Shown: positions 35,122 to 54,628 of the stretch, piece after piece
Position numbering within the stretch: the stretch's first letter is position 1
Layout: each line of letters begins with the position of its first letter
DNA from: an archaeon
Lineage (GTDB): Archaea; Thermoproteota; Thermoprotei_A; Marsarchaeales; Marsarchaeaceae
DNA length: 64,000 nucleotides
Assembly: GCA_021817005.1 (NCBI GenBank)
Contig: JAKAWJ010000002.1
Location: forward strand, 1-64,000
Reading direction: 5' to 3'
Made by a program: the position numbers and the translations under genes
Notes under the pieces: model-generated
Told to the model about the DNA's origin: nothing
What the model saw: the letters and a program-made list of their open reading frames with translations, nothing else
Databases searched by the model: none

Positions 35122-35640
35122 ATGCCTAGGGCGGAAATGGTGGGAGGAGGGTATGTCGTATTTGATGAGGACGATGCTGCAGAATTGTACTGGGACGGAT
35201 TCTTTGGTCGTCCAGTCAGGGTTGCGAAGCCAAAAAAAGGGGACATCCTTTCTCCTCTAAGGTTAACACATCATGAGGTACGCTACCTTTCCGAGCGTAA
35301 TAAACTCGATATTTTCAAAGGAAAGAAGCGTATTAAGATCCCTGACTTTAAAGGACGAGCCCGAACTGTGTACTCGGTTTACAGACACCTACGTGATAAT
35401 GGATTTGTCGTTAGGTCAGGTCTCAAATTCGGCGCGACATTCGCCGCTTACGTTGAGGGGCCCGGGATAGATCACGCGCCGCTCCTGATTCAGACAGTTG
35501 ATATTAACCAAGCCCTTACAGGCATCGAGGTAATACGAGCAGGAAGGCTTTCTCACGGAATCAAGAAGAATTTTGTGTTCTCAAGTTTAGACGCTCAAGG
35601 AAAACCGATTTATGCGACCTTAAGTTGGGTGAGGTCGTAG
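35122..35640 (+). CDS. endA: tRNA-splicing endonuclease (EndA family)
   Basis: This 172-residue enzyme cuts tRNA introns at bulge-helix-bulge sites. The C-terminal nuclease domain has 'YRHLRDNGFVVRSGLKFGATFAAYVEG', 'DHAPLLIQTVD' and 'SHGIKKNFVFS'. The catalytic Tyr (near residue 110), His (near 118) and Lys (near 147) are present. With an N-terminal domain before it, it is the short alpha-type chain; crenarchaeal-type enzymes also need a beta partner, which I do not see here. It is 187 bp upstream of an intron-containing tRNA-Thr gene. Confidence 0.94.
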   Translation: MPRAEMVGGGYVVFDEDDAAELYWDGFFGRPVRVAKPKKGDILSPLRLTHHEVRYLSERNKLDIFKGKKRIKIPDFKGRARTVYSVYRHLRDNGFVVRSGLKFGATFAAYVEGPGIDHAPLLIQTVDINQALTGIEVIRAGRLSHGIKKNFVFSSLDAQGKPIYATLSWVRS

Positions 35641-35827: not shown

Positions 35828-35920
35828 GCCTCGGTAGCTCAGCCCGGTAGAGCAACAGACGGCTTCGGCCGGTTGAACCTTGTAAGTTGTGGGTCGCGGG
35901 TTCAAATCCCGCCCGAGGCT
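35828..35920 (+). tRNA. tRNA-Thr (UGU) with a 19-nt intron in the anticodon stem
   Basis: Acceptor arms gcctcgg/ccgaggc, D-stem gctc/gagc and T-arm gcggg-ttcaaat-cccgc are perfect. A five-pair anticodon stem (acaac/gttgt) with loop ct-TGT-aa forms only after removing 35858-35876 (or 35857-35875; the ends are ambiguous by one base). The intron is gacggcttcggccggttga, with a cggc-ttcg-gccg hairpin. Position 29/30 is non-canonical. U73 fits archaeal tRNA-Thr. Mature length 74 nt. Confidence 0.92.
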
Positions 35921-44035: not shown

Positions 44036-44311
44036 TCATATGCGATACACGTGCGTAACTTCGATATTACTAACCAAATTAAGGCTAGAGATTGCAGATT
44101 CCACGGTATCAGTGCCACCCTCTATGTCCTCCGGGACAACCATGTGGAGCCTCAGCGCAACCAACCCAAAAGCGATGGGTTCTTCGTCTATTTTCTTTAC
44201 CTCAGCTACACCAGCGAGTTTCTTTTTTATTTCTTCTGCAAGCAGAGACCTATCCGTGTCTACATCGCGAGGGTATACCATCACCACTACAGCTACTTTG
44301 CCACTACCCAA
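44036..44311 (-). CDS. ef1b: Elongation factor 1-beta (aEF-1beta)
   Basis: The 91-residue guanine-nucleotide exchange factor for aEF-1alpha begins 'MGSGKVAVVVMVYPRDVD' and has 'PIAFGLVALRLHMVVPEDIEGGTDTVESAISSL', typical of the archaeal protein. It is followed by CDC48 68 bp downstream and preceded by the tRNA-Met gene. Confidence 0.95.
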   Translation of the reverse strand: MGSGKVAVVVMVYPRDVDTDRSLLAEEIKKKLAGVAEVKKIDEEPIAFGLVALRLHMVVPEDIEGGTDTVESAISSLNLVSNIEVTHVYRI

Positions 44312-44339
44312 TATATTTCGAAACCTGCTTTGGAGAATG

Positions 44340-44446
44340 TGGGCCCGAAGGGATTTTCAGACCTTGCGGTCATTTGAACCCTTGACCGTCAGGTGTCTCG
44401 GCCCTGCCTATGAGCCTGCCGCTCTACCAGGCTGAGCTACGGGCCC
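44340..44446 (-). tRNA. tRNA-Met-type (CAU) with two introns, one in the T-loop
   Basis: On the minus strand: acceptor gggcccg/cgggccc, D-stem gctc/gagc, anticodon stem gcagg/cctga (one G-A mismatch at 27-43), anticodon CAT, discriminator A. A 14-nt intron (44395-44408) sits at 37/38. The T-stem aaggg/ccctt closes only if 19 nt (about 44353-44371) are removed from the T-loop; the ends are ambiguous because both boundaries read AAAT. The T-loop intron forms a gacc-gcaa-ggtc hairpin with a GNRA loop. The gene could encode elongator tRNA-Met or tRNA-Ile2 with a modified C34. Confidence 0.88.
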
Positions 44447-44540
44447 ACGCTGTCCAATGGCTTTTATACCAGCTTAAGATAAGAGTTTTGCCATATGAGG
44501 CAGGAACAGTCGGTCATTGATTTGCTGGACCTGCGTCTGA

Positions 44541-54531: not shown

Positions 54532-54545
54532 GCGCCGGCGCGAGG
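54532..54545. repeat. Right attachment repeat (attR-like) inside the tRNA-Asn 3' end
   Basis: The 14 bp gcgccggcgcgagg cover the 3' acceptor strand and the start of the T-stem of tRNA-Asn, so the gene stayed intact after integration. Confidence 0.8.
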
Positions 54546-54628
54546 ATTCGAACCTCGGACCACTCGGTGTCTGCTCGTATCGCCTACGAGTAACAGCCGA
54601 GTGCTCTACCTAACTGAGCTACGCCGGC
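54533..54628 (-). tRNA. tRNA-Asn (GUU) with a 22-nt intron at 37/38
   Basis: On the minus strand: acceptor gccggcg/cgccggc, anticodon stem ctcgg/ccgag, anticodon GTT, T-arm cgagg-ttcgaat-cctcg, discriminator G. The 22-nt intron contains a perfect six-pair hairpin, ctcgta-ggcga-tacgag. This is the canonical intron site. The tRNA serves as attachment site for the element on its 3' side. Confidence 0.94.

Follow-up and report, generated by a model that had tools for sequence, protein, structure and literature searches.

Introduction

Noncanonical introns are a well-documented feature of archaeal tRNA genes: 673 of them have been described in 217 archaeal genomes, and the presence of two or three introns in a single tRNA is well established (PMC8450103). 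Position 59/60, in the T-loop, is one of the listed noncanonical intron sites, and the (αβ)2 type of splicing endonuclease goes together with noncanonical introns (PMC4090602). The same position is the joint of the permuted tRNAs in Thermofilum (PMC3218864). According to the bulge-helix-bulge (BHB) rule, the endonuclease substrate has a central helix of 4 bp and two bulges of 3 nt, and each cut falls between bulge bases 2 and 3 (PMC6379350, PMC4307357). The lysine of the crenarchaea-specific loop (CSL) has been tied to relaxed-motif cutting, and (αβ)2 enzymes with this residue cut relaxed motifs (PMC6379350).

We analysed a 64,000-nt stretch of DNA, hereafter the window, from a member of the Marsarchaeaceae (assembly GCA_021817005.1, contig JAKAWJ010000002.1, positions 1 to 64,000). 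A sequence-only reading of this stretch had noticed a tRNA-Met(CAU) gene with two introns and described two-intron tRNAs as rare and known from a few TACK archaea, which is overstated in view of the survey cited above. Our literature search found no paper on the tRNA introns of Marsarchaeota. Genome-wide statements made below derive from Rfam and pattern searches.

Gene structure and splice forms

Inspection of the minus strand revealed one CAU tRNA gene at 44446-44340 that is interrupted twice, by 14 nt at 37/38 and by 19 nt in the T-loop. The coordinates, both insert lengths and the gacc-gcaa-ggtc hairpin were as the sequence-only reading had given them. With the inserts in brackets, the 5′ half of the gene reads GGGCCCG-TA-GCTC-AGCCTGGTA-GAGC-G-GCAGG-CTCATA-[GGCAGGGCCGAGAC]-A-CCTGA and the 3′ half reads CGGTC-AAGGG-TTCAAA-[TGACCGCAAGGTCTGAAAA]-T-CCCTT-CGGGCCC-A. 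Exon 1 (tRNA positions 1-37, GGGCCCGTAGCTCAGCCTGGTAGAGCGGCAGGCTCATA) occupies 44409..44446 and carries the anticodon CAU at 44412-44410. It is followed by intron 1 at 37/38 (44395..44408, GGCAGGGCCGAGAC, 14 nt, BHB-like), exon 2 (positions 38-59, 44373..44394, ACCTGACGGTCAAGGGTTCAAA), intron 2 at 59/60 in the T-loop (44354..44372, TGACCGCAAGGTCTGAAAA, 19 nt, canonical BHB) and exon 3 (positions 60-73, 44340..44353, TCCCTTCGGGCCCA), which ends with the discriminator A73. Exons 2 and 3 were assigned from the sequence together with ARAGORN runs on the splice forms. A probable promoter element, TATAAAAG, was read at 44461..44468 on the same strand, 14 bases upstream of G1, and TATAAAA likewise lies upstream of the orthologous gene in three other genomes (G001, G004 and G005). 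We also considered a leader/trailer helix that would extend the acceptor stem and rejected it; by eye, this helix looked weak and poorly conserved.

ARAGORN did not report the gene when it was run on the window, and the Rfam model RF00005 gave the unspliced gene a score of 14.3 bits, which is below the cut-off. Loosening the ARAGORN thresholds produced false calls by the hundred and was of no help. When the program was given individual splice forms, neither the unspliced gene nor the form lacking the 37/38 insert alone resulted in a call, and removal of only the T-loop insert gave a wrong tRNA-Pro. Removal of both inserts yielded a clean CAU tRNA of 74-75 nt with a perfect cloverleaf. Thus, the claim that both inserts must be removed to obtain a normal cloverleaf was borne out, as only the double removal gave a CAU tRNA. 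Excision at 37/38 leaves a 7-nt anticodon loop, CUCAUAA, and excision at 59/60 restores a 7-nt T-loop, UUCAAAU.

Isotype of the CAU tRNA

The gene had been labelled tRNA-Met, and ARAGORN gives its spliced form the same label, as it does for any tRNA with the anticodon CAU. However, it is very improbable that the gene is a two-intron elongator tRNA-Met(CAU). We found 39 further tRNA genes in the genome of the window, which is 84.6% complete, and these include an initiator tRNA-Met (L008, CAU, AGCGGGG...CCCCGCTA) and an elongator tRNA-Met (L030, CAU, GCCGGGG...CCCCGGCA), both of which are intronless. The spliced gene shared 63/74 positions (85%) with spliced tRNA-Ile(GAU) from its own genome, versus 49/75 (65%) with the initiator and 42/75 (56%) with the elongator tRNA-Met, placing it nearer to Ile than to Met. 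It also matched tRNA-Ile2(CAU) across the class, where orthologues with this type of sequence occur as intact, single genes. The Ile-type body, together with the separate initiator and elongator genes, therefore identifies the CAU gene at 44446-44340 as tRNA-Ile2.

A second line of evidence comes from decoding. TiaS is the enzyme that modifies C34 of archaeal tRNA-Ile2, and it is encoded in this genome (PF08489, E 1.9e-27), which also argues against an elongator tRNA-Met. No tRNA-Ile(UAU) was present among the tRNAs found in the genome, and AUA codons are used in the genes of the window, including 27 in CDC48. The presence of TiaS, the lack of a tRNA-Ile(UAU) among these tRNAs and the use of AUA therefore lead to the same isotype. 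From these sequence comparisons we conclude that the gene is tRNA-Ile2(CAU), the third CAU isotype, predicted to decode AUA, and is neither a tRNA-Met nor a pseudogene. It had been proposed that a second intact tRNA-Met(CAU) gene would expose this one as a pseudogene. Although two other CAU genes were found, they are of other isotypes, and the proposal is inapplicable because they are the initiator and elongator Met genes. Only one tRNA-Ile2 was found in each family genome, and in the genome of the window the single-copy status of the gene is bounded by the completeness given above.

BHB motifs at the two insertion sites

The central helix at 59/60 is formed by UUCA (44378-44375), corresponding to U54-U55-C56-A57, and UGAA (44359-44356), which lies towards the insert's 3′ end. 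This 4-bp helix is accompanied by two 3-nt bulges, AA^U and AA^U, such that the motif is a canonical BHB both in the genome of the window and in every family member. The inner hairpin pairs GACC (44371-44368) with GGUC (44363-44360) around a GCAA loop. When the 19-nt insert was shuffled, the full geometry of the T-loop BHB arose in 64 of 200,000 cases (0.03%). Moving the T-loop cuts 1-3 bases earlier gives an identical mature sequence because both flanks are A-rich. Thus, the intron position is fixed at 59/60 only by the BHB motif and not by the mature sequence.

RNAfold gave the BHB form -11.7 kcal/mol versus -12.0 kcal/mol for a form with an open 7x7 internal loop, a difference of 0.3 kcal/mol. 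Because the loop form is slightly preferred, the AU-rich central helix would be marginal in the absence of the enzyme. The hairpin is stable alone, and since the predicted folding favours it in combination with an open internal loop, we considered whether only the 37/38 intron is spliced, with the T-loop hairpin retained as an enlarged T-loop in the mature tRNA. Several findings make this highly unlikely. The UUCA/UGAA helix and the exact 3-nt bulges occur in all orthologues, which only splicing would explain, and in related tRNA-Ile2 genes of the class the same T-loop sequence forms a simple loop of 7 nt. Moreover, the same kind of 59/60 insert is found in tRNA-Trp of a neighbouring family, and a T-loop of 26 nt is expected to break the contact between the D-loop and the T-loop. 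The stretch GACCGCAAGGUC would mark any otherwise mature tRNA in which the 59/60 segment is retained.

In the case of the 37/38 intron, the central helix in the genome of the window consists of CUC/GAG with A·C at the fourth pair (3/4 pairs). It is accompanied by the bulges UA^G and AC^A and a short inner helix. One orthologue (G002) has the perfect form, in which CUCA/UGAG makes 4/4 pairs and the inner helix has 4 bp, and two orthologues have an A·G mismatch in the central helix. Shuffled versions of the 14-nt insert reached the weaker criterion set for 37/38 in 1.4% of cases, so that both inserts go beyond chance expectation. Central-helix mismatches are also present in the S. tokodaii tRNA-Met, which is cleaved (PMC4307357). 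We read the 37/38 motif as a slightly relaxed BHB. Of the two sites expected to form a BHB, 59/60 has the canonical motif and 37/38 a BHB-like one.

Conservation of the two introns

Both inserts were present in 6/6 genomes of the family, representing four genera, so the combination of 37/38 and T-loop introns that had been noticed in one TACK archaeon recurs throughout the family. The same gene was found in the records Candidatus Marsarchaeota G1 BE_D and G2 ECH_B_1 and in three further bins, which assigns the window to the Marsarchaeota lineage. The gene is identical in the nearest pair of genomes (G000, the genome of the window, and G001). Between family genera the spliced sequences differ at 0-2 bases, and exon 1 is common to the six genomes save for one D-loop base. 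The T-loop intron ranges from 16 to 19 nt and keeps UUCAA...UGAAAAU in all family members, with the UUCA/UGAA helix and the AA^N / AA^U bulges invariant in every orthologue. The inner helix varies with its pairing kept, as GACC/GGUC, GAC/GUC, GAGG/CCUC or a weak GG/CC (G003). A decayed tRNA pseudogene with chance insertions, as the failure of standard tRNA finders and the low Rfam score might suggest, deserves almost no credence given that the exons are near-invariant in four genera, the introns vary under a pairing constraint, the gene is the sole tRNA-Ile2 found in each family genome while AUA codons are used, and its order before EF-1 beta is kept.

A strict pattern applied to 217 genomes of the class identified a tRNA-Ile2 of the same sequence type in 111. 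Most of these genes are intronless and 73 nt long. In 13 genomes outside the family the intron length was fully explained by a 37/38 intron alone, with a pattern that misses 37/38 introns longer than about 22 nt. Among the 111 pattern-matched genomes, a T-loop intron in tRNA-Ile2 occurred only in the six family members. A pattern search of four incomplete genomes from the second family of the order did not find tRNA-Ile2.

Downstream of the tRNA is a gene for EF-1 beta (EF1_GNE; window 44036-44339, minus strand), whose start is 28 nt past the 3′ end of tRNA-Ile2. The order of the two genes, with a spacing of 18-28 nt, is kept in the family members checked, which cover four genera. This arrangement suggests that tRNA-Ile2 and EF-1 beta may be carried on one tRNA-mRNA transcript. 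One could imagine that the introns are kept because slow or conditional splicing couples the supply of the AUA-reading tRNA to the EF-1 beta mRNA released from the same transcript, an idea that we consider very improbable.

Splicing endonuclease and other intron-bearing tRNAs

The window also contains a gene for the catalytic (alpha) subunit of the tRNA splicing endonuclease (35122..35640, plus strand; Pfam PF01974, 4.9e-23, and PF02778, 1.6e-9). Its best PDB match was Aeropyrum pernix EndA (3p1z_B, 6.2e-36). The protein keeps the Tyr/His/Lys triad, and its K36 aligns with K44, the CSL lysine. A β-like subunit is encoded on another contig, with a weak match. The genome thus appears to encode an (αβ)2 splicing endonuclease, which is expected to remove both introns.

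Other tRNA genes of this genome are also interrupted. A tRNA-Thr(UGU) gene (window 35828-35920, plus strand), which ARAGORN labelled tRNA-Arg(TCG), contains a 19-nt intron at 30/31 (ACGGCTTCGGCCGGTTGAA). By reading, its motif is a canonical BHB with a CAAC/GTTG helix, bulges AG^A and AA^C and a CGGC-TTCG-GCCG hairpin, and splicing in silico resulted in an ARAGORN call of tRNA-Thr(TGT). Similarly, a tRNA-Leu(UAG) gene (L038, G000:C36:9892-9989) contains a 13-nt intron at 30/31 (TGTTTACCGCGAA); ARAGORN called Pro(AGG) with introns allowed and Leu(TAG) for the spliced form. Counting tRNA-Ile2, at least three tRNAs of the genome therefore have noncanonical introns. Introns at 37/38 were read in two additional genes, tRNA-Cys(GCA) (L032, G000:C9:21960-22049), labelled tRNA-Ser(GCT) with an odd intron, and tRNA-Asn(GUU) (window 54532-54628, minus strand), in which the intron is about 22 nt and which ARAGORN without introns called tRNA-Ser(ACT).

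In two genomes of the order's second family, the tRNA-Trp genes (L083 in G006:C39 and L084 in G009:C19) combine a long anticodon intron with an insert of about 14 nt at 59/60 in the T-loop, the T-arm being GCCGG-UUCAAA-[ACCUUUGGUGAAAG]-U-CCGGC. Within the order, T-loop introns at this site are therefore not confined to a single tRNA. In the genome of the window, tRNA-Trp (L029) lacks a 59/60 insert. An order-wide search for 59/60 introns returned mostly chance matches, and those inspected were not tRNAs except for these two tRNA-Trp genes and one intronless gene (L090).

Discussion

We hold with high confidence that the locus is a single-copy tRNA-Ile2(CAU) gene whose canonical-site 37/38 intron and noncanonical 59/60 intron would be cut at BHBs by the (αβ)2 endonuclease and whose C34 would be modified for reading AUA. 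Our analysis shows the sequence, structure, conservation and identity of the gene and that the endonuclease and TiaS are encoded. The steps that we infer for this tRNA, and their order, follow from known archaeal biology. Transcription would start from the TATAAAAG element 14 bases upstream, and the ends of the pre-tRNA would be trimmed. The endonuclease would then make two cuts at each of the two BHB motifs, one formed on the anticodon stem and the other on the T stem; since the motifs are on separate arms, neither would have to wait for the other. Ligation would generate the CUCAUAA anticodon loop and the UUCAAAU T-loop, each of 7 nt. With t6A formed and C34 converted to agmatidine by TiaS, the modified tRNA-Ile2 would read AUA as isoleucine.

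These findings add Marsarchaeota to the lineages with multi-intron tRNAs. They also provide a comparative case in which the exons and the central BHB helix are fixed and the inner hairpin varies with its pairing kept. For annotation they carry two warnings: the gene escapes ordinary tRNA finders, and a finder that splices it but goes only by the anticodon may label it Met, so that the genome seems to lack a tRNA for AUA.

Multi-intron tRNAs and 59/60 introns have already been described in Thermoproteota, and the arrangement is of a known kind. As in the permuted tRNAs of Thermofilum pendens and Cyanidioschyzon merolae, there is a break at 59/60 joined through a BHB (PMC3218864). However, the tRNA-Ile2 halves are in normal order, making this an intron rather than a permutation. 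In mature length, body, anticodon CAU and A73 the tRNA resembles other Thermoproteota tRNA-Ile2(CAU), and some of these relatives have a 37/38 intron. It differs from them in its T-loop intron, which among the 111 class genomes is found only in the family of the window. The closest parallel is with the multi-intron tRNAs of Thermoproteales (Pyrobaculum, Thermofilum), which combine introns of about 15-20 nt at 37/38 and at a noncanonical site with BHB motifs and an (αβ)2 enzyme (PMC4090602, PMC8450103, PMC3218864). In contrast to those cases, the host here belongs to Marsarchaeota, and the 59/60 intron resides in tRNA-Ile2 and is family-wide.
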